Assembly: GCF_008087625.1 (NCBI RefSeq)
Contig: NZ_CP042997.1
Location: 9,486,001 to 9,550,000, forward strand
Length of the DNA: 64,000 nucleotides
Direction: 5' to 3'
Origin: Aquisphaera giovannonii
GTDB taxonomy: Bacteria; Planctomycetota; Planctomycetia; Isosphaerales; Isosphaeraceae
The position numbers and the translations under genes are program-made. Numbering within the stretch: position 1 is the first letter of the stretch; every line of letters starts with the position of its first letter. The notes beneath the pieces are model-generated. The model saw only the letters and a list, made by a program, of their open reading frames with translations, did no database searches and was not told the DNA's origin. Positions 13,211-36,575 of the stretch are shown here, piece by piece.

Positions 13211-13213
13211 CGC

Positions 13214-14521
13214 GTGGAACCCAGGCACCTGCTGCGAGTGCGAGGGCCGGAGGAGGCCCTGGCCGCCCTGGCCTCGGTACCCCCGGGCGCCTGGCTCATC
13301 CTGTCGGTCCGCCCCGGGCCTCTCGCGGAGGCGGATGCGCCGATCGACTCGGTCGCCGAACTGCTCATGCCGCCTTCCGGGACGATCGCCGTCCTCGATC
13401 CGAGGCTCACCGAGTACGGTGCGGAGGCGCTGGCCGTTGAATTCCTCCGGGCCCTCCATCGCCCGGGACTCATGACGCTGCTCGTCCCCCCGGCGGAGAT
13501 CCCGGCCGTCAGCGGGAAGAACCACGGGCCGGTGCTCTCCTTCGTCGGGCCCGCCTCGCTCCTGGCCGGCTCGCCGGCCGGCCCGGCGGGTCGGCTGCCC
13601 GAGGAGCTCTGCTTCCTGGCACTCCGGGCCGTGATGCACGGGGCGAAGGTCGGCGTGATCGCCCGGGAATGCCCGTCGCGGGCCGACGACTCGCCCCCCT
13701 GGGTCCCGGGCGAGGCGGGCGACGCCATCCCGCAGACCGCCCTGATCATGGCCCATCGGGGGCCCTGCGAGCTGCTCCGGGCTGCGCTCACCGGCCTGGC
13801 CGCGAGCGACCCGGCGCCGGACGCCCTGCGGGTCGGCCTGGACCTCGAGGAGGATGAGCTCGGCCCCTATCTCTCGCTCGCCCGGGAGTTCCCCCGCGCG
13901 TCCTTCTACGTCGGCTCGCACGCCCCCGTGGGCCCCTACGTGATCCGCCAGGCGATCGCGGACGAGGCGCCCGAGGAACGCCTGGTGTTCCACGACTCGG
14001 ACGACCTCTCCACGTGCGATCGCTTCCACTGGCTGCATCGCGACCTGACGATGAGGGGCCCTGCGCTGGTGGGGAGCCACGAGCTCCGGTACGACGAGGA
14101 CGACCGGGAAGTCCGGGCGGTGCGGTTCCCGCTCGACGCCTCCGCGGCGCTGGCGATCGAGCCGAAGCACCCCCAGCTCCACCCGACCACGATGCTGACC
14201 GCCGAGGGCCTGCGCCGGTCGGGGGGCTTCTCGACGGATTGCGTCTTCGGCAACGATACGCAGCTCATGCTCCGGGCGTATTTCCACATGCCCCTGAGGA
14301 ACGTCGACCGATTCCTCTACATCCGCCGCGACCGCTGGGAGTCCCTGACGAACGCGCCGGAGACCGGCATGGAGAACCCCCTCCGGATCGCCCGCAACAT
14401 CGCCTGGAGGTCGGACTTCGAGGCCGTCAGGGCGGGGCGGATGCGCCTCGAGGATTCCTCGCTGATGGCGATCGAGGGGCGCGGGGCCTGGGCCCTCCGC
14501 CGGCTCGACGCCGCCCGATGA
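13214..14521 (+). CDS. Glycosyltransferase-like protein with DxDD motif
   Basis: A protein of 435 residues starting at GTG, three bases after the preceding stop, with the ribosome site GGAAGGA inside the preceding gene. The C-terminal two thirds look like a GT2/GT-A transferase: TALIMAHRGPCELLRAALTGL opens the fold, LRVGLDLEEDE follows, and LVFHDSDDLSTCDRFHWLH carries the DxDD metal-binding motif. The segment LRRSGGFSTDCVFGNDTQLMLRAYF corresponds to the acceptor/catalytic ED-like region. The N-terminal 160 residues are less recognisable and may be a separate binding domain. Its stop overlaps a possible start of the next glycosyltransferase, so the set is one transcription unit. Confidence 0.72.
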   Translation: MEPRHLLRVRGPEEALAALASVPPGAWLILSVRPGPLAEADAPIDSVAELLMPPSGTIAVLDPRLTEYGAEALAVEFLRALHRPGLMTLLVPPAEIPAVSGKNHGPVLSFVGPASLLAGSPAGPAGRLPEELCFLALRAVMHGAKVGVIARECPSRADDSPPWVPGEAGDAIPQTALIMAHRGPCELLRAALTGLAASDPAPDALRVGLDLEEDELGPYLSLAREFPRASFYVGSHAPVGPYVIRQAIADEAPEERLVFHDSDDLSTCDRFHWLHRDLTMRGPALVGSHELRYDEDDREVRAVRFPLDASAALAIEPKHPQLHPTTMLTAEGLRRSGGFSTDCVFGNDTQLMLRAYFHMPLRNVDRFLYIRRDRWESLTNAPETGMENPLRIARNIAWRSDFEAVRAGRMRLEDSSLMAIEGRGAWALRRLDAAR

Positions 14522-14565
14522 ACGACCGTGCCGTCCCACACCGATCCCACGCGGGAGCCAGCCCG

Positions 14566-15144
14566 ATGGCCGAACGCACGCTGAAGGTCTCGATCATCAT
14601 GCCGACGTACCGGCGGCCGCACACGATAGGGCAGGCCATCGGCTCCGTCCTGGCGCAGACGCACGCCGACTGGGAGCTGATCGTCTCCGACAACGCGGGC
14701 GACGGCTATCGGTTCGACGACCCGCGCATCGTCGTGTTGGATTCGCGAGGGGTCGCCAGCGCCGCCTACGCGCGGAACCGGGCGATCCCGCTCGCGACCG
14801 GCGACCTCGTGAGTTTCCTGGACGACGACGACGAGCTCGACCCGACCTACCTGGAGACGCTCGCGGGAGAGTTCCGCTCGCGGCCGGCGTTGCAGATGGT
14901 CAAGTGCCAGATGATCCGGCGGGGGGAGCTCAACGAGACGTACGGGACGCCGACCGTGCTGGTGCGACGGCCGCTCGCCACGCCCTCGTGGGAGCCGATG
15001 TGGCGGCAGGACCGGAGCTATTTCCAGGCGATCATCGACCGGCACGGGCTGTCCGAGGCGGCCGGCACCCTCGCCATCCTGCCCCGGGCGCTCTGCCGAT
15101 CCGGCGTGGATCCGACCGGCGGCCTGCGGGCGGGGGGGCTCTAG
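14566..15144 (+). CDS. Family 2 glycosyltransferase, short
   Basis: A protein of 192 residues (208 if the overlapping ATG at 14518 is used; 14566 has the better ribosome site, GGGAG about 9 bases upstream). It is a classic GT2 domain: VSIIMPTYRRPHTIGQAIGS at the start, DWELIVSDN, ARNRAIPLATGDLVSFLDD with the DDDDELD metal-binding cluster near residue 85. It is shorter than typical GT2 enzymes (about 250-320 residues) and stops soon after the SWEPMWRQDRSYFQ region, ending in a Gly/Leu tail. It may be a minimal domain or slightly truncated. It sits inside the plus-strand glycosyltransferase run. Confidence 0.8.
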   Translation: MAERTLKVSIIMPTYRRPHTIGQAIGSVLAQTHADWELIVSDNAGDGYRFDDPRIVVLDSRGVASAAYARNRAIPLATGDLVSFLDDDDELDPTYLETLAGEFRSRPALQMVKCQMIRRGELNETYGTPTVLVRRPLATPSWEPMWRQDRSYFQAIIDRHGLSEAAGTLAILPRALCRSGVDPTGGLRAGGL

Positions 15145-15243
15145 CGACGCCGCCGCCTCGCGGGCCGGGCCGCGATGGCACCGCGCCCCAGGGGCAGGCG
15201 CGATCCGGCGGGGACTCCATCGACGCGAACGTGGGGAGATTCG

Positions 15244-16182
15244 GTGAGGATCGCATCCGTCACGATGATCGGCCGATTCCCGCACGGCATCGGCCTCCAC
15301 GTCCGCAACCTGCGGTGGGCGCTCTCCGGGCGCGACCACAGCGTGATCGTGACCTTCGGCTCCTACATCGAGCAGCTCGGCCTCCGGAGCGACGATCGGG
15401 TCACCTACATCGCCTGCGGGGAGCCCGGCGATCCCCGCCGATTCTTCCCCTTCTGGAAGGAGTTCCCGCGGATCGTCCGCGACCGCGGCATCGACCCGGA
15501 ATGGTTCCTGTTCATGGAGCAGGACATCTGGTTCCACGCGCCGATCGAGGGCGACCCGCCGCCCGGGGCGGGCGAGATCCGCGCCTTCCTCCCGCCGAGC
15601 GAGGTCTATCACGCCGTGCTGAGGGGCGGAGAGCTCTACCACCCGAGGGTCTGGGAGGGCGCCAACCTCGTCCACGGGCCCCTCGTTCACCGCGCCATCG
15701 ACTACGGCATCGACTTTTCGGGGCATGCCGACCTGTTCATCCGCGCGGACAAGGAAGACTGGGATCGGCGGGCGGGGGGTACGATCTCGTTGCGCGAGTA
15801 CGAGCGCCCGGACACCATGGACGAATTCACGCTGTACTGCGCGCTCGTCGAGGGGACGCGGATGACGCACTCGCCGAGGGCGGCCCACCTGCAAGGGCCG
15901 GAGGCCCTTCACCGGCTCAGCCCAGAGATCTACGAGGGCTGCGGCGCGGAGAAGCTCGGTCGCGTCGCCGATCAATGGCGCGATTACATGTGCGCTTCGG
16001 CGGCCGTCGCGGTGTATTACATCGCCGGCAACTGGGACCGCGAGGCCGACTGGCGACGCATCCAGCGGCGCTACCGGCCCGAGTTCCGGAGCCTCATCCC
16101 CTCCGCCCGGGAATGGATGGAGCCGCGGGAGTACGAGCGGCTCGAGAGGGTCGTCGCCGGATTCTCGGCGGGCCCGGGCTGA
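15244..16182 (+). CDS. Glycosyltransferase-like protein
   Basis: A protein of 312 residues from GTG at 15244, with GGGGAG 7 bases upstream. The N-terminal region (IASVTMIGRFPHGIGLHVRNLRW) and the segment EWFLFMEQDIWFHAP look like a GT-A nucleotide-sugar site with a variant acidic motif (EQD). Further conserved-looking parts are NLVHGPLVHRAIDYGI and DEFTLYCALVEGTRMTHSP. The exact family is not recognised. It closes the plus-strand run of glycosyltransferases, and a minus-strand fucosyltransferase-like gene converges on it 42 bp beyond its stop. Confidence 0.65.
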   Translation: MRIASVTMIGRFPHGIGLHVRNLRWALSGRDHSVIVTFGSYIEQLGLRSDDRVTYIACGEPGDPRRFFPFWKEFPRIVRDRGIDPEWFLFMEQDIWFHAPIEGDPPPGAGEIRAFLPPSEVYHAVLRGGELYHPRVWEGANLVHGPLVHRAIDYGIDFSGHADLFIRADKEDWDRRAGGTISLREYERPDTMDEFTLYCALVEGTRMTHSPRAAHLQGPEALHRLSPEIYEGCGAEKLGRVADQWRDYMCASAAVAVYYIAGNWDREADWRRIQRRYRPEFRSLIPSAREWMEPREYERLERVVAGFSAGPG

Positions 16183-16224
16183 ACGACCCGTCGGGTGCGG
16201 TCGTCGCGCGGCGAGCCCCGGCCG

Positions 16225-16971
16225 TCAATCCGCGACGTGGAGGTCGGTCACGAGGGTGCGGCAATTCCTGGGATCGCAGATGCGCGGCCAGTTGCCCTCG
16301 ACGAATTCGACCGTCTGGTAGCCCGTGCGGTCCTCGACGACGGGGCTGAACACCCGCCCCTCGCCGAGCAACGCGGCCCACCAGCTGAAGGTGGAATTGG
16401 CCCGCAGCACGACGTCGGCGTTCATGACGGCGAAGAAGTCCGCCAGGAATCCCAGGCCCGGCCCGTCGAAGGCCGGCATGGGCGGCCTGAGCTCCTCGCA
16501 GACCCAGATGAGCGCGTCGACGTCGAGCCCGAATCGCCGGCAGGCGTCCAGGTAGGACGGCTTGGTGACGATCGCGAAGACCTCCTGGAGGTCGAGGTAA
16601 TCCCCCCGCCTCAGGTTGGCCGCGATGTAATAGGGCCTCGGCGGCTCGAACAGGGAGGTCCACTCGGGCCGGAACGCGTACCAGCGGCGGAGCTCGGCCG
16701 TCGAGAGGCGCCCCACGGCGTCCTGATACTGGAAGAAGCCGAACAGGTCGACGTCGACCCGTCCCCAGGGGAGTTCGTCGAACGCCGCCCGGGGGAGCGT
16801 CCGCGAGAGGGGCGGGTCATCGATCCCGAAGAGCCGTTGACCGATCCACGCCGGGGTCTCCAGCCTGGCGCCGTGCAGCTCGGCATACTTCCGCGCCACG
16901 GCATATTGGAAGAGCTGGTTCCCGAACCGGCCGTAGCTGCCGAGGCAGGAGATGGAGACGATCGCGCTCAT
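16225..16971 (-). CDS. GT11-type alpha-1,2-fucosyltransferase-like protein
   Basis: A protein of 248 residues with family 11 hallmarks: the N-terminal GRFGNQLFQYAVARKYA block (about 14-30), the donor-binding NLRRGDY motif in place of the usual HxRRGDY (about residue 121), and the C-terminal NSTFSWWAALLG block (about 203-214). These enzymes use GDP-fucose to form alpha-1,2 linkages on surface glycans. It is shorter than E. coli WbwK-type enzymes by about 40 residues but holds all three motifs. The start at 16971 leaves the conserved block properly placed; an upstream extension to 17028 is Pro/Gly-rich and rejected. It completes the glycosyltransferase cluster at 9.8-17 kb. Confidence 0.85.
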   Translation of the reverse strand: MSAIVSISCLGSYGRFGNQLFQYAVARKYAELHGARLETPAWIGQRLFGIDDPPLSRTLPRAAFDELPWGRVDVDLFGFFQYQDAVGRLSTAELRRWYAFRPEWTSLFEPPRPYYIAANLRRGDYLDLQEVFAIVTKPSYLDACRRFGLDVDALIWVCEELRPPMPAFDGPGLGFLADFFAVMNADVVLRANSTFSWWAALLGEGRVFSPVVEDRTGYQTVEFVEGNWPRICDPRNCRTLVTDLHVAD

Positions 16972-17065
16972 GACCCCAGAAGCTCCGCTTCCCGGCCGCG
17001 CACCGGGGATGGGCGAGGGGCCGGGCAATCTCCCCGGCCCGCGCGACTCCCGCGGGCGGCCCTGC

Positions 17066-18772
17066 CTACCGGGGCGGCATCGGCCCTTCCGCGTCGGCCC
17101 ACAGGCCGGTCGGCACGAAGCGGCGACGCGACAGATCGAGGTTGATGACGGAGACGCCCGTGGAGCCGACGTGACGATTCGGCTGGAAGGTCAGCGGGGG
17201 AGCCAGCCCGGTCCGGAAGTCGCGGAGCTGCTCGAGCGCCGCGACCAGCCGCTCGCGATCGAGGCCCCGGCCCGCGCGGCGGATCGCCTCGACGAGCACG
17301 TCGGCGGCGGCCAATGCGGCGAGCTGTGCGGTGCGGTGTTGCTGCGACGGCCCCGCCGGGCCCAGGAGGTCCCGGTATCGGGCGAGCGATCCGGCGGTCT
17401 GGTCCGAAGGGGCGATCGGCAGGCCGACTTGCAGATGTCCGTCCAGGGAGGCGGGGAGTCCCAGGACGTCGCCGTCGGCCAGGGTGCCCGGGAACAGGAC
17501 GGATGGCTTCCGGCCCCGCTCGGCCAGCGCGGAGAGGAGCGGCGTCGATCCTCCCGGGGGGCCGAGGAAGACGACGGACTTGACCTCCCCCAGCGCTTCG
17601 GCCGCGGCGTCGACGCTCCCGGGCGCCCCGGAGAGCTCGACGTCGATCGGGGATGCCAGCTCGGCACGCCGGCAGCGGTCGCGGAGGGCTTTCGCCAGGG
17701 CCCGCTGCCGCGCGTCGGGGCCGTGGACGATGGCGAAACGATCTCCCGGGCCCCCGGCGCGGAGGGCCTGGCGGAGGAGCGCGAACGCCTGGTCGTCGGG
17801 GCCCGCCAGCAGGAAGAAGGTCCATCGGCCCGGCCGGGGCCGGTCGAACGCGGGCGGGGCGACGACTCCCACGAGCGGGACCTGCCGCCGCTCCGCGGCG
17901 GCCGCGATCTCGGGCTCCACGGCCCCCAGCCTGGCCGCGAGGATGGCGAGGACGGGCTCGCCGCCGGACGTCAGGTCCCCGATCGGATCCCCCCGCCCAT
18001 CGCCCTCGGCCGGGCCCTCGACGTACCGGAGCTGGATCCGGCGATGATAGACGCCGCCACGCCCGTTCAGGACCTCGACCTGGCGGTCGAGGAGGCGTCG
18101 CAACTCCTCGCCCAGGCCGGCGGAAGCATCGCCGGGGGGGAGGACCACGCCCAGGCGGATCTGGTCGCCGGTGATGCCCGGGTCGCGGTCCCTCTCGAGC
18201 TGCCGGAGGTAGGCGATCAGGTCGGCATTATCCCCGATCGACAGGCGGTAGCGCGGCATCGCCTGGTCGAGCGGGGCCCCGCCCGAGTCCAGGCCCATGG
18301 CGATCGCCCGCGTGAGCAGGCCCTCGGTATAGGGCGGCCGCCGCCGGCCGTCGGGCCGGTCCAGGCCGTATGGCCGGGTGAGCGTCGCCCAGGTCACGTC
18401 GGAAGGGACGGTCGCCCCCTCGGCGACCCCACGCCCATCCCGGCCGTGGCAGTTGACGCACGCGAGCAACCGGGCGGGGACCGGGACGGAGCCCCCGACC
18501 ACCCCGGTGATCTCGCCGCCCGATGGGCTCTCCCCGTTCAGGTAGATCACGCGACCCCGAGCGAGGCGGCCCGCCTCGGCCTCGGCCTCCGGGGCGGCCT
18601 CGCGAGACTCGCCCCCGGCCGCGACGGCGATCGGCCGATCGGCCCGCCCGCAGGCGGACGCGGAGGCGGCCCCGGCCAGGAGCAGGGCCGCGAGAAGCCG
18701 CCGGACGATCGGCCGCCCGGGGCATCGCGTGCGATCGGTCGCGTCGCCGGGCGTCCCGTCAGTGCTTGCCAA
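17066..18772 (-). CDS. Lipoprotein fusing cytochrome c and a periplasmic ligand-binding domain
   Basis: A protein of 568 residues. A lipoprotein signal ends at Cys41 (LAGAASASAC). Residues about 65-190 form a c-type cytochrome with the haem site CVNCHG (Cys105 to His109) and a likely axial Met172 in QAMPRY. From about residue 200 the protein follows the type 1 periplasmic-binding fold of LivK-like receptors (IRLGVVLPPGD, LLDRQVEVLNGRGGVYHRRI, FFLLAGPDDQAF, VVFLGPPGG). Such proteins bind a small molecule; fused to haem this could be a redox sensor or an electron-delivering binding protein. The start overlaps the stop of the tandem SCO gene by 14 bp, so it is the last member of a coupled four-gene operon. 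Confidence 0.87.
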   Translation of the reverse strand: MASTDGTPGDATDRTRCPGRPIVRRLLAALLLAGAASASACGRADRPIAVAAGGESREAAPEAEAEAGRLARGRVIYLNGESPSGGEITGVVGGSVPVPARLLACVNCHGRDGRGVAEGATVPSDVTWATLTRPYGLDRPDGRRRPPYTEGLLTRAIAMGLDSGGAPLDQAMPRYRLSIGDNADLIAYLRQLERDRDPGITGDQIRLGVVLPPGDASAGLGEELRRLLDRQVEVLNGRGGVYHRRIQLRYVEGPAEGDGRGDPIGDLTSGGEPVLAILAARLGAVEPEIAAAAERRQVPLVGVVAPPAFDRPRPGRWTFFLLAGPDDQAFALLRQALRAGGPGDRFAIVHGPDARQRALAKALRDRCRRAELASPIDVELSGAPGSVDAAAEALGEVKSVVFLGPPGGSTPLLSALAERGRKPSVLFPGTLADGDVLGLPASLDGHLQVGLPIAPSDQTAGSLARYRDLLGPAGPSQQHRTAQLAALAAADVLVEAIRRAGRGLDRERLVAALEQLRDFRTGLAPPLTFQPNRHVGSTGVSVINLDLSRRRFVPTGLWADAEGPMPPR

Positions 18773-20000
18773 CGGATGAGTTCCCGTCGTCCGCGACGGC
18801 CTGCTCGACCTTGGCGAGAAGGCCGTCGGCGTCGCGCGGATCCAGGTGCTTGAGCCAGAGCCCCGTCGCCTCGTTGCCGACGACGATCGTCGTGCTGTGG
18901 GCCTCGCGGGACTCCACGTACTGGCCGAGCCGCCGCTCCACCTGCTCCAGGTCCTTCTTCTCCCCGGTGAGCAGGTGCCAGCCCGGCCGTGCCTTGAGCC
19001 TGCGCGCGTATTCGGCCATCTGCGGCACCCGGTCCGTGGCCGGGTCCACGGTCAGGGAGAGCAGGACCACCTGCCTGTCCAGGCGGTCGCCGAGGCGGTC
19101 CTGGAGCTTCGTCAGCGCGTCCGCCATCACGAGGCAGCTGCCCTTGCACGAGGTGAAGAAGGGATGGACGACGACGACCTTCCCCCGGATCAGGTCGCTG
19201 TAGAGCCGCAGCCGCCGGCCATCCTGGTCCACGAGCGTCGTGTCGGTGAAATAGTTCCGCCCCCCGCGGATCCGGAGGGCCGCCTCCATCATCGCCATGA
19301 GCTCGTCGGTACCGGCGACCCTCCGGCTGCTCCACCCCTCGCGGCTGTCCCCGTCGAGGACGAGGACGCTCTGCGAGTGGTCGGTCTTCTGCGGGGAATA
19401 CACCTGCAACGCCTTGAGCAGGGTGACGAGCTGGTCGAAGCCCGCCTCGCTGGCCGTGACCTGCGTCCACCCCGGGCGTGCGCCGTAACGGGCGGCCCAT
19501 TCCTTCAGGCGATCGGGGCGGTCCACCGCGGGATCGACGCTGATGGAGATCAGGGCGCACTCGGTCCCCAGCCTCTCCCCCAACCGATCCTGCAGCTTCG
19601 CGAATCCGGCGCCCAGCAGCGGGCAGGCGGCCTTGCAGGAGGTGAAGACGAAATTGATCGCGACCACCCTGCCCTTCACCAGGTCGCGGTAGAAGTGGAC
19701 GGGCTTGCCGTCCTGGTCGACGAGCTTCACGTCGGGGATGTCGATGGTGCGCGGCTTCCCGGGCGAGGGAGGGCTCGCGGGATCCGAGCCGGCGTCGCGG
19801 GCCCCATCCACCTTGCAGCAGGCCGCGGCGGGCGCCTCGGTCGCGGGGACCGCCTGCGCCCCCGCGGCCGCCACATCCGGGAGCGGCCGGGACGAGGAGT
19901 CCGGCTCGACCCGGCACCCCCCGAGGACTGCGGCGGTGGCGATCAGGAAGAAGGAGGCGGCCGGGGACCGCACAGCCCGGCGTCGGGGCCCATTCATCAT
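18759..20000 (-). CDS. Tandem SCO1/SenC-type copper chaperone/thiol redox lipoprotein
   Basis: A protein of 413 residues. A lipoprotein signal ends at Cys29 (AVLGGC). Two SCO domains follow. The first has CKAAC (Cys122, Cys126) with His208 in TDHS; the second has CKGSC (Cys285, Cys289) with His368 in EAHS. Thus both copies keep the CxxxC plus distal His copper site. The repeats share the phrase KLQDRLGxRL and so come from an internal duplication. SCO proteins deliver copper to CuA sites of oxidases or act as thioredoxin-like reductants. The upstream gene's stop overlaps the start codons in ATGATGA, with GAAGGAG as ribosome site, giving tight coupling. The likely client is the giant copper protein encoded first in this operon. 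Confidence 0.92.
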   Translation of the reverse strand: MMNGPRRRAVRSPAASFFLIATAAVLGGCRVEPDSSSRPLPDVAAAGAQAVPATEAPAAACCKVDGARDAGSDPASPPSPGKPRTIDIPDVKLVDQDGKPVHFYRDLVKGRVVAINFVFTSCKAACPLLGAGFAKLQDRLGERLGTECALISISVDPAVDRPDRLKEWAARYGARPGWTQVTASEAGFDQLVTLLKALQVYSPQKTDHSQSVLVLDGDSREGWSSRRVAGTDELMAMMEAALRIRGGRNYFTDTTLVDQDGRRLRLYSDLIRGKVVVVHPFFTSCKGSCLVMADALTKLQDRLGDRLDRQVVLLSLTVDPATDRVPQMAEYARRLKARPGWHLLTGEKKDLEQVERRLGQYVESREAHSTTIVVGNEATGLWLKHLDPRDADGLLAKVEQAVADDGNSSVGKH

Positions 20001-22099
20001 CTCGACTCCTTCGCTTCCACGGTGAGGAACCAATGCCGGTTGACGTCGAGGCCGCCGGACGCGGACTGGGCGTAGAGATAGTGCGTGCCGGGCCGGGGCG
20101 GGATCCATCGGACGGAATAGACGCCGGGATCGTGGCCGGAGGCCGCGGCGGGCAGGCGGCGCTGGGCTCCGCCGGGGGCCATGGAGAGGACCGTGACGTC
20201 CCCGAGCCTGCCCGCCGGCGAGCCCGTCGCCCGGTCGGTGATGCGGAAGCGGATCTCGACCGGCGTCCCGGCCGTCGCGGCGGGCGCCTCGAGCGCCTTC
20301 ACGACCAGGTCGGCCCCCGCCCGTTTCCGGCGCGTCGGGTCGGGGAGGACCTTGACGGCGAAGTAATGGGTGATGCGGGGCGAATCGAGCAGGAACGCCA
20401 AGTTGTACTCCCCCGCCAAGCCCAGCCGGCCCACCGTCTCGTAGACGCCCGGGCTCCGCTCGCGCAGGCTGCGGTCCAGGGTCAGCGTCGCGCGGGGCAT
20501 CCTGCCGTAGTTCGAGAAGCTCCCCATCGGGGCCGACATCCCCTGCTTGTAGTAATAGATGGTGCGGTCGGACGGGTTGGCCACCAGGACCGCGTCGTCG
20601 CCCGGGACCGGGGCGATCGAGGCCGCCAGGCTGGGCTCGACCTTCCGGGCCGACGGCGCCTTCTGCCCCGCCGGGAAGTCGATCACGGAGACCGGCCGGC
20701 CTTCCTCCCCGAGCCCGCCGAGGGGGATGATCTGGACGATCGGGCTGTCGAGGTGGCGGACGTAGGCCAGCGTGCCGGCGAAGACGACCTGGTCGGGATT
20801 CTTGTCCGTCCCCGCCCTCTGGACGAATCGGCCCGCTGCCGCGTCCAGGACGTGGACCGCGCACGCCCCGGGGTTGACCGCCAGGCCGACCGTGCCGTCG
20901 GGCGAGAACCGGAGCTGCGTGATCCCGGGCTCCGCCACCGCGCGGCCCACGACCTTCAGGTCCTCCGGCGAGAGGATCGTCACCGAGCCGTCCTGCGAGT
21001 CGGCGACGTACACCATCTGCGAGGCGCCCGACCAGGCGATCGACCGCGGCGCGGGGCCCGTCGGCAGGTCCGCCACCCTGGCCAGCCGCGCGACGTCGAC
21101 GACGGAGACCGTGCCGTCGCCGCCGTTGGTGACGAAGACGTGCCGCCCGCCCCCGTCGAAGGCGAGCTCGTGGGCCCCCCTGCCCGTCGCGATCCGCCCC
21201 GCCAGCCTGGGCCCCTCCGTGGAGATCGCGGCGATCCCTGGCCGTGCGGGGTCGTCCAGGGCGGCCCAGAGGTAGTGGCCGTCGGGCTGGAGGGCCAGGC
21301 GGGTCGGCCGGTCGAGCCCGTCGATCGCGGCGACCTCCGACCACGTCGCCGTGTCCACGACGGCGACCTGATTCGCGGACGGGCACGAGACGTAGAGCCG
21401 GGAGCCGTCGCCCGAGAGCACCCAGTCGGCGGCGTTCCCCTTGAGGCGGACCATCGTCAGCAGCTTCGTGTTGCCGAACCCGAAGAACGGGTCGACGACC
21501 GTCACCGTCGCGTCGTCGTTCATGGTCAACGCGTAGAAGACGTTGAGGTCGAGGCTGGGCCGGCTGAAGCGATCCCCGCGGAGGAACCGGGCGATCATCC
21601 TGGCGGCGTCCAGGGCCTCCCGGCCTTCCCCCTCGACCCGCGGCACGAGCCAGGCCGCGGGATGGGACTTGGCGACACCCACGCCGTCGGCGTCCCCGGT
21701 GATCGTGAACCGGAAGACCGCATCGCGGCCCTCGCGGAGCCCCTCCTCCGCGGATTCGGCGCCGCGGGCCGGCAGCAGCTCGAAGGCGACCCGGACTCCC
21801 TGGTGCTCGTAGGTCTGGGCCCCGGGGCCCGGCTTCGGGGGATCGGGCGGCCTCGAGGCGACGGGGGCGGGAGGCGCTGGTTGTCGCGCCTCGGTCCGGT
21901 TGGCGGCCTCCTGGGGCCGGTCCCTCGAATCGCAGCCGACGGCGTGGAGCCCCAGGGCCCACGCGAGGAGGGCCGCCGCGGGTGGGCGCCATGCCGGGGC
22001 GTGGCCGGGTCGCCGGCGGGGTCGGACGTCCCGGGACGAAGGCGGGCCGGCCGAGGGGACCTGGAGCCCGGCCGGCCGGACGCATGGAGAGCTTATCAT
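19997..22099 (-). CDS. Beta-propeller (YVTN/cytochrome D1-like repeat) lipoprotein
   Basis: A protein of 700 residues from the ATG at 22099. A hydrophobic stretch ends in the lipobox-like HAVGC (about residue 52), so export and lipidation are likely, although the signal is preceded by an unusually long Arg/Pro-rich leader. Repeated blades of about 40 residues are visible: WVLSGDGSRLYVSCPS, VAVVDTATWSEVAAI, ELAFDGGGRHVFVTNGGDG, TVSVVDVARLARVADL, MVYVADSQDGSVTIL. These are YVTN-type WD40-like propeller repeats. A C-terminal region (about 590-700) is beta-rich and Ig-like. Propellers of this type bind partners or haem d1; no clear haem ligand is seen. It lies 15 bp after the giant oxidase gene and overlaps the SCO gene. 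Confidence 0.88.
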   Translation of the reverse strand: MISSPCVRPAGLQVPSAGPPSSRDVRPRRRPGHAPAWRPPAAALLAWALGLHAVGCDSRDRPQEAANRTEARQPAPPAPVASRPPDPPKPGPGAQTYEHQGVRVAFELLPARGAESAEEGLREGRDAVFRFTITGDADGVGVAKSHPAAWLVPRVEGEGREALDAARMIARFLRGDRFSRPSLDLNVFYALTMNDDATVTVVDPFFGFGNTKLLTMVRLKGNAADWVLSGDGSRLYVSCPSANQVAVVDTATWSEVAAIDGLDRPTRLALQPDGHYLWAALDDPARPGIAAISTEGPRLAGRIATGRGAHELAFDGGGRHVFVTNGGDGTVSVVDVARLARVADLPTGPAPRSIAWSGASQMVYVADSQDGSVTILSPEDLKVVGRAVAEPGITQLRFSPDGTVGLAVNPGACAVHVLDAAAGRFVQRAGTDKNPDQVVFAGTLAYVRHLDSPIVQIIPLGGLGEEGRPVSVIDFPAGQKAPSARKVEPSLAASIAPVPGDDAVLVANPSDRTIYYYKQGMSAPMGSFSNYGRMPRATLTLDRSLRERSPGVYETVGRLGLAGEYNLAFLLDSPRITHYFAVKVLPDPTRRKRAGADLVVKALEAPAATAGTPVEIRFRITDRATGSPAGRLGDVTVLSMAPGGAQRRLPAAASGHDPGVYSVRWIPPRPGTHYLYAQSASGGLDVNRHWFLTVEAKESR

Positions 22100-22113
22100 G
22101 TGTATTGGCCGGA

Positions 22114-25100
22114 TCACGGTTTGAGTGGCATCTCCTGCGGGAGGAAGCGGGTGGCGTCCTCGGGGCGTCGGTCGCGGGCTTCCGCCGGCAGTTGGGGCTT
22201 GACCTTCTTCACCTGCACGGGCTGCACGACGAGCCGGGCCGTGCCGCCGTCCGAGGACGAGAGCTGATAGGCCCCGATCGGCTGGCTGACGACCGCCGTC
22301 AACTGGAACGTCCCGTCCGCGGGGTTGACCGTCGCCGGGTTGCCGACGGCCTGGCCCCCGGCGTCGAGCAGCGAGACCTCCTTGGCGAAGCCCGGCGCGT
22401 TGAGCTTCTTCCACACCCTGCCGCTGACCGTGATGAGGTTGCCCTGCAGGAGGACCGATCGGACGTTGATCTGATCCGCGCCCTCCTTCCCCACCCGGAA
22501 GATGCCCCAGAGGCCCGCCTGCAGTTCGGTGCTCTCGAAGCCCCGGTAGAGGTAGTCGCCGACGATCCCCGCCTCGCCCCCCGCATGGTCGAGCAGGATG
22601 TTGAACTGGGAGTTGGGGGGGACGCTGCCCAGCGTCCCGATCCGCAGCGACGGCGAGTCATTGCCGAGGACCCGCGATTCGGTCCCCTTCTTCGTCGGCG
22701 TCCAGTTCCACACGTGGCCGTGGATGGTGAACGGGGTGTAGGAGTTGCCGCCGGGGTGGAGGACCCGGAACCGGACCGGCAGCTTCTGCGGCGCGTGGAA
22801 GATGGGAGTCTGCGGGTCGGAGAAGTTCGGCATCTTGGGATCCGGGACCACCACCGAGGGGAGGTCGGAGGTGGCGTCCGTGATGTCGATCGCGTTGAAG
22901 TCGGGGAACGCCTGGTCCGTCTGGTAGTTGAACCGGTAGGCGATCGGCTCGGTCCTGTAGTTGATCGCCTGGAGGATCATCGCGCTGGAGGCGGGGACGT
23001 TGTCCTGGATCATCAGGACGAACTCCCGGAACTGCCCCTTGTCGCCGCCGAGCGTCACGGTGGCCTGGGCCCGGCTGTCGGTGTCGGCGACCCAGGTGGC
23101 CCCCTCGGGCTCGATCACCAGGGCGCCGAAGAGCCCGTGGTTGGCCTGCGACTCGCTCGGGCTGGAGGCCGGGTCGCTCGGCGTCAGGTTGACGGCCCCG
23201 AACTCGACGGGCCGGCCGTTCCCGGCGGCGTCGATCTCGCCGGCATACCAGGTGTAGGAGACGGAATCCCCGGGCGCCTCCGCCGTCTGGTTCGCGTTGT
23301 TGCCGCCGTTGAAGCCGTCGGAGGTCGTGACGTCGTAGCTGAGGAGCTGGGGATGCAGCCCGGCCCTCTGGCGGCCGCCGTTCGCCCCCGGGAGGGCGAT
23401 CCTGTTGGTCAGCTTGACGCGGATGAGGTCGCCCGCATTGGCCCTGAGCACGAGCGGCTCGGGGATGTAGCCGGGCTTGAACTGGTTGTTCGCGTCGTCG
23501 TAGTCATCCTTCGTCACGTACACGACCGCGGACGGGTCGTTGAGCTTGCTGCTCCCCCGGTTGTAGTAGACCAGGCCGTCCGGGTTCGCCGTGCCGTCGG
23601 CGTTCTTCACGCTCGCGGGCGAGACGGCGAAGACCTCGAAGTCCTTCACCTTCCCGGCGGCCACCAGTCCGTCGTAGAACTTCTGGACGTTGGCGAGCGC
23701 GCCGGACGGGGCGGCCATGCCGGGATTGGTGGGCAGCGGCGCGAGGGAATCGGCCTTGCCCTGGTAGGCCCGCAGGATGCCCCAGTTGCCGTTGAGCAGG
23801 CCGCGGGTGTCCGAGCTGGCCATGTAGAGGTAATCGGCCGCGGGCGGCGTCGTCGGCACGAGCTGCTTCGCCGCGCTCGGCGGGAGGCGGAACAGCATCT
23901 CGTAATGCTCGGAGATGGACATGACCTGCGTGCTGACGTACCCGGAGTCCGGATTGCCGGCCTCCTGGAGCCACCTCAACCCGTGCAGGTTGAACGAGTG
24001 GGGCAGGAAATGCGCGCCGATGAGGACGCGGACCTGGACGTCGTCGTTCTCGTAGGCCCGCAGCAGGGGCGTGTAGGGATCGAGCGGGCCGGCACCCGGG
24101 TACGCATTCGGGTACTTGAAGCTGGATCCGGGCCCGATCGGATTCTGCGGGTCGCCCTGATTATTGAGGAGCGGGTCGTTCCTCGCGATCGATGCGAACG
24201 CGTGCGAGGGGTCCATCGGGTTGAGGTTCGGGGGGGCGATCCGGGCGGAGATCGGCTCGCTCCGATAGTTGATCGAGCGGGTGCCGGGCTCGGGGCCGGA
24301 CGTGATCAGCGTCGGCTGGTTGACCTTGTTGTTGTCCCGGAGCTTGGGCGGGTTGATCGCATTGCTCGGATCCGTCCAGCCGAAGGTCGGCGGGAACGGG
24401 CTGGGAATCTCTGCTTGATACTTCTGATAAGCCACCGGCGCGGAAGGCGGCGAGACACTCCCGCTCTTGTAGGCGAGCTGCGTATCCTGCAGCTCGAGCG
24501 CGAACTCGCGGTAGCTGCTGGCCTTGTCGGCCGAGGCGATGATGGCCTGCCAGCTCGTGGGGCCCCCGTCCTTCGTCGGCGAGCCCGTCCCCGAATCGTA
24601 CGGCGCGGCGTCGCGGCCGCCCAGGGCGAGGCCGGTCGACGAGTCGCTCCAGCTCGAGCCCCGCGGCTCCACGAGGAGCGCGGCGTAGAGGCCCGCCTGC
24701 TGGTGGGTCGAGGGGCCGAGGTGGTCGTGGGTGAAGACGCTGCGCAGCGTCCTGTCCTTCGGCGACTTCGGCGGCTGCGGGTTGTCGGTGATCGGGTCGG
24801 CGAACCACCGCTGGACGGTCGCCTGGGCGCCGTCCCAGGCGTTGACGTGGTTGCCGTTGACGTCGACGATCGGGGCCCCCGGGCCGAAGAAGGGGATTGG
24901 CTTGGCCTTCAGCGTCTTCCTGCCGCTCAGGCCCGGCAGGAAGATGCCGCCGGCCTTGTTGATGGCCTCGATCCGCTCGCGGACCTCGTCGGGGCTGAAC
25001 GTGCCGTCCTCGTAGTTGAAGCCGTTGGCCCCGCCGTCGGACGAGGTCACGTCGAACTTCACCAGGTGGATGTGCTGGCCGATCACGTCGGTCGGCGTCC

Positions 25101-28100
25101 GGACCTGGAAGTCGTCCAGCTCGTAGACGTTCGGCACGAGGTTGGCCTGCCAGTACTCGACGACGTCCCCGCTGTTGGCCCGGAAGAACAGCGGCTCGGC
25201 GATCCGCCTGTTCTCCAGGGTGTCGCGCACGTCGCCCCAGAGCGACAGGATCCGCTGCTGCGGGTAGTGCCACCCGCTCTTGTTGAGCACCACGTCGAGC
25301 TGGATGTCGGCGGCCTTGTAGACGACATGGCCGCCGAGCTCCTCGGGCTTCGTGTACGGACCGCCGGTCGGGTCGGCATACGGGGCGCCGGGGGCCCGGG
25401 GCTTGCCGTTGGTGAGGAACAGCCCGGTCCCCCCGTCGGGCGTGTCCGTCGGGTGGGACTTGAGCTCGTGGAACGCCATGGCGACCTGCTCCTCCGGCGT
25501 CCCCTGCTCCGGCAGCTCGACGGCGCTGAGGTGCTCGTTCAGCTTGGTGAAGTCGTAGGCGTTCTGCTTCTGGTAGGAGACGTCCCCGCCCATGATGATG
25601 TGCCGCGGCAGGCCGCCGTCGAGCGTCACGCCGCCGTCGACGGCGAAGTCGAGCGGGGGATGGGGCGACCGGCGCCCGCCGACGCCCGGGACGAAGAAGG
25701 GATACCCGGGGTTATCCTGGGACCCGGGGTCGACCGGGACCGCCTTGTACCCCGACAGCTCGTTGGGGCGGCTCGGGTCCCCCACCTTGACGATCTTGAC
25801 GGGCGCGGGGATCGGGGCCATCGGCAGCGTGGGGATGGGCACGACCGCCGGGATCGGCGTGCCGCGCTCGATCTCGCCGTCGGGCAGCGCCCGGGAGTCC
25901 GCCGCGGCGCGACCGTCCGGGTCGAGCGGCGTGCCGGCCTCGAAGACGTCGTGCGTGCGCCAGAGCGACCACATCCCCTGGGCGAAGTGGGGATAGAAGT
26001 GGCAGTGGAAGATCGAGTCGCCCACGGTCAGGTTGCGGTTCCCGCTGCCGTAGATGATCTCCTGGGTGAAGCCGTCGCCCGGGGTGATCGTCTGGCTGTC
26101 CAGGAGCAGGCTCTCGTCGCTGCCCGGCGTCCGCAGCCACTGGTGGGCGTGCAGGTGGTGGACGTGGGTGATGTTCCCCCCCGCGTGCAGGACGCGGAAG
26201 CGGACGTGATCATTCAGGTAGCTGTGATAGACGTTGGACGGGTCGTCGGGGAAGTAGGCCTTGGTCGCGGCGGCGGGGGTCTCGACGGCCTCCAGCCCCA
26301 CGTCCTCCTCCGGGGGCCTCCGCCGGGGGAAGCCCCGGGGGACCGGCGGCGAGGACCTCGACGACATGAGGGGCCTCGCGGCTCCCGTGGCCGGCGGGGC
26401 GGCCTCGGCGGCGGGGGGGAGCGGCTCGCTCGGGCCGTGCCCGCCCCCGGCGTCGCCGGCCGGGGCATCGGCGGCGGCGGCGTGCCCGGCCGCGTGGCCG
26501 CCCGTCACGGCGGCGATCTGCGGCTGGAAGTCGCGCTGGTACTGGCTGTTCGCCGGATGGTCCACGATCATGGCCGGGTCGCCGACGACCCAGGAGCTGA
26601 GGAAGAACTCCTCGTACTTCGACTCGACGCTCCGCGCCATGGGGCCGACCTTGATGCGATTCGCCCAGATCTCGGCGCCGATGCCCGCCATCCCGTAGTT
26701 GATGGCGAAGTTGTCCTGCCCCGCCGACATCGCCGACGACGTCCGGGTCTCGGGCTGCCCGGGGCCGGGCGGGTTGAACTCCGGGAACGCCTGCACGGCG
26801 GTCAGGGCGTCGTGATAGTGGATCGAGAATTCCCGGTAGGGCTTCCTCGCGTCCGGGTAGACCGGATTGGGACGCCCCGCGGGCTCGGGCAGGAGGCCCT
26901 GGTACGGCCCGGTGACGATCGCGGTGAGGTCGGAGTGGACGATCTCGAGGGCCGGCTTCCCGTGGTCGTCCGGGGCGGGCTTCGTCATCCTGAGGATCGG
27001 CGTGCCGGCCGGGATCGGCGTCTTCAGCCCGCCGCCGTCGGGCGAGAGGTCCTCGTAGCTCGTGCCGGCGGGGTAGGTCGCATCGTAGTCGATGACCGGG
27101 TGGCCATGCGGGCCCCGACGGTTCGGCTTCGAGGCGAGCTCGAGGTCCTTCCTGGTCACCTGGCTGCGATACCATTCGGCCCCTTCCGGCTCGACGGTGA
27201 CCGAGCCGAACAGCCCGGCGGTGAGCTGCGCGGCGTCGAGGCTCGCCCCGAGCTGCGCGGCCGTGCTGTACAGCAGGAAGGCCCCCTCGGCGCGTGCGTA
27301 GAAGCGGTAGATCTTCGTCTCGCCCGGCTTGCAGTCGGACGAGTTCGCCGCCGCCTGGCCGTCCAGGTTCAGCCCCACGTAGGAGGCGTCGGAGTCGACG
27401 GTGCCGATGAGCTCCATGCCCGAGACGTGCACGCCGGCCGTGCGCGTCGCGGGGTGCTCCAGGGGGAACGGGACCTTGGGCGGAGACTCGCTCAGCAGGT
27501 TCGTGAACGTGATCTCCAGGCAATCGCCCACGTTGGCCCGCAGCACCACGGGCCGGGCCCGCTTGCCCGGGCGGAGCGTCACGCAGCCGGCGCCGATCGA
27601 AGCCTTCGGATCCGACGAGTTGGGGACCACGTCCCGCTTCAGCGCGAAGATCATCCCCTGCGGCATCGCCGTCCCCAGGCGGTTGCAGAGGAACCCGTAG
27701 TCCAGGGCGACGACCTGCGCCTTGACGACGCGCTTGATCCGCGGGTCATCCAGCCCGCTCGGGTCCTTCGGGCTGTCATTGGGCGCGAGCTTCAGGGGGG
27801 GCCGGGCGAGCATGCCGCCCATGTGACGGCCGTGCCGGCTGCAGAAGAAGCCCAGCGTGGTGCCCGGCGGCAAGCCCGGCTTGACGGTGGCCTGCGCCAG
27901 GATCGTCCCGGCGGCCTGCGGGGCGGTGCCCCACACGGTTTCGGTGCCGACCGTCTGCGGGCCCAGGGCCGGCAGGCCGCCGCCGCCCTCGAAGGAGAGG
28001 AACGCCTCGGCCTGCGCCTGGGTGTCGAAGACCACCCCGTGCGTGCCCGAGACGGCCCTCCAGGCGATCGTGTCGCCGGACTTCACCTCCACGTCCGCCG

Positions 28101-28641
28101 CCGCCTTCGTGCCGACCATCCAGGTCGGGGTGCCGCCCTGGATCACGCCGTCGATCTGGATGACGTTCGTGGCGGTCGGGACCTTCAGGGAGCCGCTCAT
28201 CATGCGGCCGTGCTGGGTGCAGAAGAAGCCCAGCGTGGCCCCCGCCGGCACGCCCGCCTTGACCGTCGCCCGGGCCAGCGTGCTGCCCGCCGGCAGCGGC
28301 GGCGTCCCCCAGCCCATGGCCCCGTCGGCCACCGCCGTCTGCGGCCCCAGCGCCGGCAGCCCCCCGCCGGACTGGAAGGCCAGGAGCGACTCGGCCGTCG
28401 CCTGCGCGTCGAAGAGCGCGCCGTGGGTGCCCGAGACGGCCTTCCAGACCACCTCGTCCCCCGGCTTGACCGCCACGTTCGTCGCGTCGCTGCCGCCGAC
28501 CACCCACTTCACCATCCCGCCGGCGATCACCCCGTCCACCTCGATCGTATCCGAGCGGGCCGCACGGCTTCCCGCGCCCAGGAGCAGCAGGGCCGCCGGA
28601 ACGATCGCCAAGAAGCTCGACAACCCACCTGGCCTTCTCAT
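22114..28641 (-). CDS. Giant secreted multicopper oxidase-like protein with multiple cupredoxin domains
   Basis: A protein of 2,175 residues with a Sec-type signal (FLAIVPAALLLLGAGSRAARS). Residues about 30-285 are two cupredoxin repeats, each ending in a plastocyanin-like site (FFCTQHGRMM, FFCSRHGRHM). Copper motifs follow: HVHHLHAH at 826-833 (HxxHxH type), HCHFYPHFAQGM from 879 (HCHx3Hx4M type), HIH at 1190-1192, HDH at 1305-1307, HSFNLH at 1548-1553, HGH at 1974-1976. The ligand set of a multicopper oxidase is present, but the order is rotated relative to laccases, where the two HxH motifs come first. The size recalls the large bacterial Mn(II) oxidases (MnxG/McoA-type), so metal oxidation is plausible but unproven. 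A GGAGGG ribosome site precedes the ATG. It heads the operon with propeller, SCO and cytochrome genes. Confidence 0.9.
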   Translation of the reverse strand: MRRPGGLSSFLAIVPAALLLLGAGSRAARSDTIEVDGVIAGGMVKWVVGGSDATNVAVKPGDEVVWKAVSGTHGALFDAQATAESLLAFQSGGGLPALGPQTAVADGAMGWGTPPLPAGSTLARATVKAGVPAGATLGFFCTQHGRMMSGSLKVPTATNVIQIDGVIQGGTPTWMVGTKAAADVEVKSGDTIAWRAVSGTHGVVFDTQAQAEAFLSFEGGGGLPALGPQTVGTETVWGTAPQAAGTILAQATVKPGLPPGTTLGFFCSRHGRHMGGMLARPPLKLAPNDSPKDPSGLDDPRIKRVVKAQVVALDYGFLCNRLGTAMPQGMIFALKRDVVPNSSDPKASIGAGCVTLRPGKRARPVVLRANVGDCLEITFTNLLSESPPKVPFPLEHPATRTAGVHVSGMELIGTVDSDASYVGLNLDGQAAANSSDCKPGETKIYRFYARAEGAFLLYSTAAQLGASLDAAQLTAGLFGSVTVEPEGAEWYRSQVTRKDLELASKPNRRGPHGHPVIDYDATYPAGTSYEDLSPDGGGLKTPIPAGTPILRMTKPAPDDHGKPALEIVHSDLTAIVTGPYQGLLPEPAGRPNPVYPDARKPYREFSIHYHDALTAVQAFPEFNPPGPGQPETRTSSAMSAGQDNFAINYGMAGIGAEIWANRIKVGPMARSVESKYEEFFLSSWVVGDPAMIVDHPANSQYQRDFQPQIAAVTGGHAAGHAAAADAPAGDAGGGHGPSEPLPPAAEAAPPATGAARPLMSSRSSPPVPRGFPRRRPPEEDVGLEAVETPAAATKAYFPDDPSNVYHSYLNDHVRFRVLHAGGNITHVHHLHAHQWLRTPGSDESLLLDSQTITPGDGFTQEIIYGSGNRNLTVGDSIFHCHFYPHFAQGMWSLWRTHDVFEAGTPLDPDGRAAADSRALPDGEIERGTPIPAVVPIPTLPMAPIPAPVKIVKVGDPSRPNELSGYKAVPVDPGSQDNPGYPFFVPGVGGRRSPHPPLDFAVDGGVTLDGGLPRHIIMGGDVSYQKQNAYDFTKLNEHLSAVELPEQGTPEEQVAMAFHELKSHPTDTPDGGTGLFLTNGKPRAPGAPYADPTGGPYTKPEELGGHVVYKAADIQLDVVLNKSGWHYPQQRILSLWGDVRDTLENRRIAEPLFFRANSGDVVEYWQANLVPNVYELDDFQVRTPTDVIGQHIHLVKFDVTSSDGGANGFNYEDGTFSPDEVRERIEAINKAGGIFLPGLSGRKTLKAKPIPFFGPGAPIVDVNGNHVNAWDGAQATVQRWFADPITDNPQPPKSPKDRTLRSVFTHDHLGPSTHQQAGLYAALLVEPRGSSWSDSSTGLALGGRDAAPYDSGTGSPTKDGGPTSWQAIIASADKASSYREFALELQDTQLAYKSGSVSPPSAPVAYQKYQAEIPSPFPPTFGWTDPSNAINPPKLRDNNKVNQPTLITSGPEPGTRSINYRSEPISARIAPPNLNPMDPSHAFASIARNDPLLNNQGDPQNPIGPGSSFKYPNAYPGAGPLDPYTPLLRAYENDDVQVRVLIGAHFLPHSFNLHGLRWLQEAGNPDSGYVSTQVMSISEHYEMLFRLPPSAAKQLVPTTPPAADYLYMASSDTRGLLNGNWGILRAYQGKADSLAPLPTNPGMAAPSGALANVQKFYDGLVAAGKVKDFEVFAVSPASVKNADGTANPDGLVYYNRGSSKLNDPSAVVYVTKDDYDDANNQFKPGYIPEPLVLRANAGDLIRVKLTNRIALPGANGGRQRAGLHPQLLSYDVTTSDGFNGGNNANQTAEAPGDSVSYTWYAGEIDAAGNGRPVEFGAVNLTPSDPASSPSESQANHGLFGALVIEPEGATWVADTDSRAQATVTLGGDKGQFREFVLMIQDNVPASSAMILQAINYRTEPIAYRFNYQTDQAFPDFNAIDITDATSDLPSVVVPDPKMPNFSDPQTPIFHAPQKLPVRFRVLHPGGNSYTPFTIHGHVWNWTPTKKGTESRVLGNDSPSLRIGTLGSVPPNSQFNILLDHAGGEAGIVGDYLYRGFESTELQAGLWGIFRVGKEGADQINVRSVLLQGNLITVSGRVWKKLNAPGFAKEVSLLDAGGQAVGNPATVNPADGTFQLTAVVSQPIGAYQLSSSDGGTARLVVQPVQVKKVKPQLPAEARDRRPEDATRFLPQEMPLKP

Positions 28642-29628: not shown

Positions 29629-30864
29629 ATGACGACATCTCCCCACGGGTCGGGCGGCGAGCTGATCGAGCGCATCTCGGCCCTGGCGCGGGGGAAGTTC
29701 GCCGCCCGCGCGGATCGCTACGACCGCGAGGCGGCGTTCCCCGCCGAGGACTTCGAGGACCTCTTCCGGGCCGGGCTGCTCGCGCCGGCCGCCCCCCGCG
29801 AGCTCGGCGGCCTGGGGCTGGGCCCCGAGTCCGGCCTCTACACGCTGTGGATGCTGACCAAGGAGCTGGCCAGGGCCGACATGGCCCTGGCCCGATGCTG
29901 GGAGGGGCACGTCAACTGCCAGGTCCTGCTCAGCGCCCTGGCCGACGAGCGGCAGCAGCGTCGGTGGTTCGAGGGCATCGTCGGGCGCGGCGAGATCTGG
30001 GCCGCCTGGAGCGGCGAGCCCCAGGCGCGAATCCCCGGCCAGAAGGCCCGGTTCGGGACCGCCGTGCGGCCGGTGACGGGCGGCTACCTCGTCGACGGGA
30101 CCAAGGTCTTCGCGACCGGCTCGCGGACGGCGAGGTGGGCGATCCTGCTGGTGAACCTCCAGGGCCCGGGGGGCGCCCGGCACTCCTCCGCCGTCGACGG
30201 GCTCCTCCTGCTGGCCTGCGACCTGGCCGACCCCAGCGTCCAGTTCGACGAGTCGTGGTGGGATCCGATCGGGATGCGCGGGACGGTCAGCTATCTCGTC
30301 CGCTTCCGCGAGACGTTCATCCCGGCGGAGAATCGGATCGGCCACCCGGGACAGTACCTCCGCGAGGGGTGGCAGGCCCTGTTCAGCCCCCATTACGGGG
30401 CGACCTTCCTGGGCGGGGCGGAGGGCGCCTGCGATTATGCGCTCGATTACATCCGCGCCCAGGACAAGGCGGGCGACCCCTACGTCCAGCAGCGGGTCGC
30501 GACCATGGCCCTCAACCTGGAGAGCGCCCACCTCTGGCTCCGGCGGGTCGCCGACCTCTGGCAGGCTCGCCGCGCCGCCGAGGCGAGATCGGCGGGCATC
30601 CGCGCCCGCTACCTGCTGGAGGCATGGGCGACGGACACCGTCCGGCAGGCCCTGCACACCTGCGGGGCCCGCGGGCTGATCCGGCCGAGCCCGCTGGAGC
30701 GGATCTATCGCGACCTGTCCTTCTACGTGCTCCACGACAATTCCGACCAGGTCCTCGCGACGATCGGCCGCGAGATCCTCGGCCAGTCGCACGACGCGTC
30801 GTTCTTCAACGCCCCGCCCCGCCCGGCCTCCGGCGACGCGAACGGCCGGCGGCCCGAATCCTAG
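29629..30864 (+). CDS. Acyl-CoA dehydrogenase-family flavoprotein
   Basis: A protein of 411 residues with the acyl-CoA dehydrogenase fold. The N-terminal helical part holds FRAGLLAPAAPRELGGLGLG, the middle beta domain has IWAAWSGEPQAR and GGYLVDGTKVFATGSRTARWAILLV, and the C-terminal helices include the terminal R-x-D-L segment ERIYRDLSFYVLHDNSDQVLATIGREILG. The pattern is nearer to the DszC/hydroxylase-type subgroup of two-component flavin monooxygenases than to true fatty-acid dehydrogenases, since the usual catalytic Glu region is not recognisable. So oxygenation with reduced flavin is an alternative to dehydrogenation. The ATG at 29629 fits the conserved N-terminus, though its ribosome site is weak. 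It is a single gene with no obvious operon partner. Confidence 0.82.
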   Translation: MTTSPHGSGGELIERISALARGKFAARADRYDREAAFPAEDFEDLFRAGLLAPAAPRELGGLGLGPESGLYTLWMLTKELARADMALARCWEGHVNCQVLLSALADERQQRRWFEGIVGRGEIWAAWSGEPQARIPGQKARFGTAVRPVTGGYLVDGTKVFATGSRTARWAILLVNLQGPGGARHSSAVDGLLLLACDLADPSVQFDESWWDPIGMRGTVSYLVRFRETFIPAENRIGHPGQYLREGWQALFSPHYGATFLGGAEGACDYALDYIRAQDKAGDPYVQQRVATMALNLESAHLWLRRVADLWQARRAAEARSAGIRARYLLEAWATDTVRQALHTCGARGLIRPSPLERIYRDLSFYVLHDNSDQVLATIGREILGQSHDASFFNAPPRPASGDANGRRPES

Positions 30865-32206: not shown

Positions 32207-32366
32207 CCGCCCGCAAGGTCGTCGGCCCCGCGCCGGGAAGGTGCGAACGCAATGCCCCCGCGGCGTCCCTTCGTGGCGCCCCGGAGGGCACCATCTGGTG
32301 ATCCGGCCCACGCGGGGTCAAAATACCCTCGACCCGACCAATCCCGCGGAGAGAGGGACCCCTGCC

Positions 32367-34535: not shown

Positions 34536-34575
34536 CCGGCGATCGCCGACACACGCCCCGCCCGGAGGCCCGCCC

Positions 34576-36503: not shown

Positions 36504-36575
<72 letters not shown>

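Follow-up and report, generated by a model that had tools for sequence, protein, structure and literature searches.

A putative diverged mnxG-type metal-oxidase operon in the planctomycete Aquisphaera giovannonii

Introduction

Four closely spaced genes for exported copper and haem proteins lie on the minus strand of the genome of Aquisphaera giovannonii (10.5 Mb in three contigs), within a stretch of 64,000 nucleotides (contig NZ_CP042997.1, positions 9,486,001 to 9,550,000) referred to here as the window. The first of them encodes a giant multicopper oxidase (MCO), and the locus raises two questions: whether the set belongs to a known type of operon, and which electron donor the oxidase would serve. 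The genes are best read as a diverged metal-oxidase operon of the mnxG type, acting outside the inner membrane and most likely on Mn(II), a reading to which we assign a probability of roughly 65%. It is supported by the match of the MCO to a model of the manganese oxidase MnxG, the shared gene order, full sets of partner genes at 32 of the 41 related loci with flank on both sides, the invariance of the copper residues and the alignment to Bacillus MnxG. Mn(II) oxidation is considered most likely because of the homology to MnxG.

The operon

The features concerned, in window coordinates, are the following.

22114-28641, minus strand: MnxG-type giant MCO; 2,175 amino acids, ATG start, Sec-type signal peptide (by eye)
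27802-28563, minus strand: two tandem N-terminal cupredoxin-like domains (MCO residues 27-280)
19997-22099, minus strand: YVTN-type beta-propeller, probable lipoprotein; 700 amino acids, ATG start
18759-20000, minus strand: tandem SCO1/SenC protein, probable lipoprotein; 413 amino acids, ATG start
17066-18772, minus strand: cytochrome c / Peripla_BP_6 fusion, probable lipoprotein; 568 amino acids, TTG start

Transcription runs from the MCO through the propeller and the tandem SCO gene to the cytochrome c/periplasmic-binding fusion. The MCO and propeller genes are separated by a gap of 14 base pairs (bp), the propeller and SCO genes overlap by 4 bp inside the sequence ATGATGA, and the SCO and cytochrome genes overlap by 14 bp. 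An earlier note on this stretch had described four minus-strand genes, closely packed and all for exported proteins. The open frames and junctions bear this out, with the Sec signal of the MCO and the lipobox-like cysteines of the other three proteins read by eye; the two overlaps stand as they were given, whilst the MCO/propeller gap, put at 15 bp, is 14 bp. The junctions also support the prediction, made in the same note, that the four genes form one coupled operon for an exported copper/haem redox system.

Chance open frames are excluded by the guanine-plus-cytosine content at third codon positions, which is 0.91-0.96 across all four genes, and by the length of the MCO frame, whose stop-free run is 2,268 codons against a maximum of 461 in 100 mononucleotide shuffles of the same stretch. 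For the cytochrome fusion, TTG is the sole start codon seen ahead of the signal peptide and is taken as the putative start. A promoter scan returned one minus-strand site, at 29188-29160, about 520 bases before the MCO start (shuffle mean 0.4), and a terminator scan returned six predicted sites (shuffle mean 3.3), none of them at the operon end.

Gene order shared with mnxG operons

In Pseudomonas putida GB-1 a putative mnxG operon comprises mnxG, a YVTN propeller gene, two SCO1/SenC genes, a gene for a substrate-binding protein with a cytochrome c domain and a gene for a SurA-domain chaperone (PMC11409713, Table 4), and a similar operon has been described in Pseudomonas sp. OF001 (PMC8218464). 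The window carries the first five of these functions in the same order, its two SCO functions being joined in one gene; the mnxG-type gene order on one strand is found in the window by comparison both with that table and with locus L119. The GB-1 operon is known here by its published gene list, and sequences of Stutzerimonas stutzeri K1 stand in for it. The K1 oxidase exceeds the MnxG cut-off with 3679 bits, and its downstream gene order is the same as in the window. Identity between the window and K1 is 35% for the oxidase (703 of 2,022 columns), 37% for the propeller, 34-41% for the SCO domains and 38% for the cytochrome fusion. A categorically new system was considered and rejected, since the GB-1 operon has the same set (PMC11409713). 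The earlier statement that no described system has this set is unsupported, because both the GB-1 list and the K1 order match the window.

The giant oxidase and its copper sites

Against the NCBIfam model NF041487 (manganese-oxidising MnxG) the MCO scores 995.3 bits (E 4.7e-299) over seven stretches. The top match in a sequence search of the PDB is 9bxa_A, the solved Bacillus MnxG, aligned across the copper motifs with an E value of 2.1e-92; a search of recent papers found no cryo-EM structure of MnxG. Pfam gives two weak Cu-oxidase matches only, both under cut-off. The motifs of multicopper oxidases of the laccase/ceruloplasmin superfamily are HxH, HxH, HxxHxH and HCHxxxHxxxxM. All four are present in the MCO, as expected of a member of the superfamily, in the order HxxHxH, HCH, HxH, HxH, which is permuted relative to that of laccase. 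Twelve residues of these motifs (H826, H829, H831; H879, C880, H881, H885, M890; H1190, H1192; H1305, H1307) are invariant in all 85 rows of an alignment made up of the window's oxidase, 80 frames from the loci of a genome scan and four from plasmid records. The core holds every residue predicted for a type 1 and a trinuclear copper site.

Partner genes among relatives

The genome scan, with one genome per species, confirmed 196 oxidase loci, of which 80 were kept; at 25 of these the downstream flank was insufficient, which leaves 55 testable loci. A partner was counted at a match of at least 40 bits on either strand within the stretch examined, and for strict order the distance from the MCO match could be at most 2.5 kb to the propeller and at most 6.5 kb to the cytochrome. 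All three partners occur at 39 of the 55 testable loci, two at 1, one at 10 and none at 5. The 41 loci flanked on each side by 6.5 kb or more divide into 32 with all three, 1 with two, 7 with one and 1 with none, the window's order lying directly downstream of the oxidase at 20 of them. Where there was downstream flank only (14 loci), all three partners are found at 7, all in order, one at 3 and none at 4. By record title, the loci with full sets belong to Acidobacteriota, Pseudomonadota, Bacteroidota, Myxococcota, Planctomycetota and Chlorobiota. These counts support the view that the four families occur together far more often than by chance. The earlier note had suggested a search for such co-occurrence and had named an oxidase regularly found by itself as evidence against linkage; the 39 full sets speak for the linkage, whilst the loci with two partners, one or none go part of the way towards that contrary evidence.

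Fusion of the SCO gene, defined as one open frame with two SCO matches, is not special to the window, because it is seen at 18 of the 44 loci with all three partners (a number that includes five short-flank loci), for example in Pyxidicoccus fallax, Candidatus Jettenia ecosi and Aquimarina. Methylobacter luteus carries two adjoining MnxG-like oxidase genes (locus L113, 8477-19495).

The propeller scores over the cut-offs of TIGR02276 and of the Pfam families YNCE and Cytochrom_D1. Domains of the SCO1/SenC class have a CxxxC motif plus a distal His; the window's SCO protein, which belongs to this class, matches PF02630 in two stretches (111.7 bits against a cut-off of 22.8) and carries CKAAC at 122 and CKGSC at 285, with H208 and H368, picked by eye, as candidates for the distal His. 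Seven matches to the SCO profile occur in the whole genome, two of them the domains of the operon's own gene. The cytochrome fusion matches PF13458 (77 bits) and PF00034 (22.2 bits), with CVNCH at 105 and M172 as the candidate axial Met. C105, C108, H109, M172 and P173 are invariant in all 27 rows of an alignment that includes 26 of the 30 relatives that score above 450 bits; 14 of its 21 invariant columns fall at residues 73-185, the cytochrome part, and 6 inside the binding domain (204-542). The structural model of the fusion (pLDDT 84) shows a type I periplasmic-binding fold, its best fold matches being annotated as fatty-acid and Leu/Ile/Val-binding proteins. In the available parts of the literature searched, no tested role was found for the propeller or the cytochrome fusion.

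The N-terminal cupredoxin-like domains

Residues 27-280 of the MCO form two domains identical at 71 of 126 aligned positions, each with a His followed by CxxHxxxM, the ligand pattern of a type 1 copper site. They are probably added copper or electron relay domains. The cupredoxin reading leans mainly on the ligand pattern; the fold matches are weak. Pfam returned no cupredoxin family for the region at E 5, and the plastocyanin model TIGR02656 scores 19 bits on it against a cut-off of 87.85. Structure prediction for one of the domains reached a best pLDDT of 67 (other models 41-54), and Foldseek found no match at E 0.001. VIA-align placed plastocyanin at Z 6.0 and copper nitrite reductase at Z 6.3, with two unrelated protein types higher, up to 6.9, and carries the warning that Z of such size can reflect a common arrangement.

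With the N-terminal region as query no open frame matched at E 0.001 in the 80 loci, and with the whole oxidase as query two weak pieces of the region (25 and 14 bits) were found in locus L097, from a Thermoanaerobaculia bin. None of the relatives' 81 oxidase frames (from the 80 loci, some of them cut by contig ends) has such a pair at the N terminus. The L097 frame is the sole one of the 81 with motifs of this kind and an upstream His; there are three, all internal, at residues 1872, 2008 and 2150, and the frame (9857-17410) shows three CxxHxxxM cupredoxin-like repeats at residues about 1778-2159. Among 297 genomes of the class, matching domains occur in three besides the window's, and in one of these the domains make up a protein of their own, encoded 1.75 kb downstream from a further giant oxidase. 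The locus in that planctomycete (genome G385; L140, 5567-18730) encodes, in row, a 2,065-residue giant MCO, an FG-GAP protein, a three-cupredoxin-like protein, an uncharacterised protein and a galactose-oxidase-like kelch protein. As read from the sequence, the tandem N-terminal domains are a new addition to a known type of operon.

Distribution, origin and neighbourhood

Among 45 genomes of the family, some of them incomplete, the oxidase was found in one, the window's own, and the same holds for the cytochrome fusion. A sample of 392 genomes of the phylum gave 27 matches to the MnxG model at E 0.001, none over its cut-off: 12, including the window's, have E values below 1e-100, and the other 15 lie between 4e-12 and 5e-5. 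The highest identity of the window's oxidase is 59%, to Pyxidicoccus fallax. In a quick tree (FastTree, SH-like support; the planctomycete loci L008-L018 are without a row and L093 was too short) the oxidase as a whole spans ten groups. That of the window falls in a group of 36 rows (support 100), mostly Acidobacteriota, Pseudomonadota and Bacteroidota; the nearest rows by path are the Thermoanaerobaculia bin and two proteobacterial bins, and the joining fork has a support of 93 and is unstarred. The operon was likely gained by transfer between phyla, as suggested by the absence of the oxidase from 44 of the 45 family genomes together with its position in the tree. A search for the upstream neighbour in two genomes of the same genus gave no counterpart in one and proteins of 25-27% identity in the other, and no empty site was demonstrated.

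The adjoining genes look unrelated to the operon: downstream lies a minus-strand gene (16225-17028) with a weak glycosyltransferase 11 match, and upstream a plus-strand acyl-CoA dehydrogenase gene (29629-30864). Planctomycete-type families are carried by the neighbouring genes, among them, at 32241-35997 on the plus strand, a gene for a planctomycete cytochrome/DUF1549/DUF1553 protein and, after it, a DUF1501 gene; the two are often paired in Planctomycetota. A tRNA-Gly(ccc) gene (36503-36575, minus strand) is the only RNA gene found in the window by Rfam at gathering scores.

Proposed function and alternatives

From the gene set, its order, the copper and haem motifs and the homology, all direct observations, we infer a substrate, an electron path and roles for the partners. 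The giant MCO would take electrons singly from a reduced metal, most likely converting Mn(II) to Mn(III) and Mn(IV). The electrons would pass via the type 1 copper to the trinuclear cluster, where O2 would be reduced to water on the outer side of the inner membrane. Copper delivery to the MCO, or maintenance of its thiols in the reduced state, is the probable task of the tandem SCO protein; for the propeller and the cytochrome fusion a part in assembly is probable, or one as an electron relay with a single haem and a pocket for a small ligand. The earlier note had proposed that the SCO protein matures the oxidase, with the propeller as a scaffold and the cytochrome as a sensor or relay, roles that stay hypothetical. 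In P. putida a mnxG mcoA double knockout showed no Mn oxide under the conditions tested, and a tenfold slowing was seen in the mnxG deletion (PMC11930936). No match to an animal haem peroxidase of the MopA type (PF03098) was found in the genome, and the control likewise gave no match anywhere.

A number of observations weigh against an mnxG-type operon acting on Mn(II). The MCO falls below the curated cut-off of NF041487, with 995 of 3100 bits, and is thus not assigned to the MnxG equivalog. In the quick tree S. stutzeri MnxG lies outside the window's group, as do the three other planctomycete rows. The related giant oxidases MofA and OmpB have been linked with iron (PMC5566968, PMC11412304). 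At 16 of the 55 testable relatives at least one partner is missing. No SurA match was found among eight frames tested downstream of the operon, a set that does not cover every frame, and in S. stutzeri the frame after the operon is without any Pfam match. Strict orthology of the MCO to MnxG was rejected on its sub-cut-off score and its position apart from S. stutzeri MnxG; judged by its sequence, it is a diverged lineage, apart from true MnxG in the quick tree.

Of all steps in the explanation, the choice of substrate is the weakest: it need not be that of MnxG, because of this score and this tree position, and the divergence allows Fe(II) or an organic donor. That an operon of the same type works on Fe(II), or on an organic electron donor (a phenol, for instance), and oxidises Mn incidentally or not at all, is in our view rather unlikely, albeit far from negligible. 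It would suit an oxidase outside the S. stutzeri MnxG group and far under the MnxG cut-off, iron has been discussed for related giant oxidases (PMC5566968, PMC11412304), and a substrate cannot be told from copper ligands; the partner set, however, is that of the Mn-oxidising mnxG operon, and MnxG stands first in the PDB sequence search. Among 20 neighbouring frames no copper exporter, CopC/CopD or regulator was found (Pfam, E 0.01), which argues against periplasmic copper handling or defence against oxidative stress with metal oxidation as a side reaction. Such a role appears distinctly improbable, even though the SCO and cupredoxin-like domains are predicted from their motifs to bind copper and a Mn(III)-based defence against reactive oxygen has been proposed for a related oxidase in Nitrospina (PMC3578206). 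Almost no credence attaches to the view that the four genes are chance neighbours without common function, for which the five testable relatives without any partner might be cited; the overlapping junctions, the full sets at 39 of the 55 and the mere seven SCO matches genome-wide contradict it, and it was rejected as in effect refuted by the co-occurrence counts.

For the preferred mnxG-type operon, most likely with Mn(II) as substrate, there is a slight chance that the cupredoxin-like domains and the cytochrome fusion divert metal electrons into the respiratory chain, and not only to O2 at the trinuclear site. If so, this planctomycete would conserve energy from the oxidation of Mn(II) or Fe(II), and giant oxidases would repeatedly have acquired blue-copper modules, within or near them: an N-terminal pair here, an internal triplet in the Thermoanaerobaculia relative and a separate triplet protein close to such an oxidase in another planctomycete. 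With this locus, a complete mnxG-type operon is on record for a planctomycete, the rest of whose family seems to be without one. With partners beside the oxidase in at least six phyla (by record titles), the partners, rather than the oxidase alone, become an evident subject of study: Pseudomonas would allow a direct test of whether they are required for Mn oxidation and of which ligand the haem-linked binding domain takes up.

Comparison with known systems

Within the phylum, putative Mn oxidase genes have been reported in 15 of 29 Planctomycetota genomes from a subsea tunnel (PMC10732223), and one planctomycete sequence appears in a published tree of MnxG-like proteins (PMC3600357). The Bacillus mnx operon (MnxEFG, PDB 9bxa) shares with the window a homologous MCO with the same copper motifs, but Bacillus MnxG has 1,227 amino acids in the PDB chain, as opposed to the 2,175 of the window's protein, and it needs MnxE and MnxF (PMC5622069). 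By description, the mofABC genes of Leptothrix and the ompB cluster of Geobacter resemble the window in combining a giant MCO with a cytochrome c gene, to which Geobacter adds an SCO gene (PMC5566968). They differ in that MofB is a peptidyl-prolyl isomerase, and neither a propeller nor a cytochrome/binding-protein fusion is mentioned for mof or ompB in the available part of that source (PMC5566968). Plasmids of Roseomonas gilardii and Sphingobium xenophagum carry gene rows that are alike by annotation, with a large hypothetical protein (the MCO), one or more hypothetical proteins, an SCO family protein and a cytochrome c; unlike the window, each has one SCO gene, and MCO identity is 34.0% and 31.6%, respectively. 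Compared with the mnxG operon of P. putida GB-1 and its relatives, the window is distinguished by its fused SCO gene, by two extra N-terminal cupredoxin-like domains and by an oxidase from another tree group than S. stutzeri MnxG.

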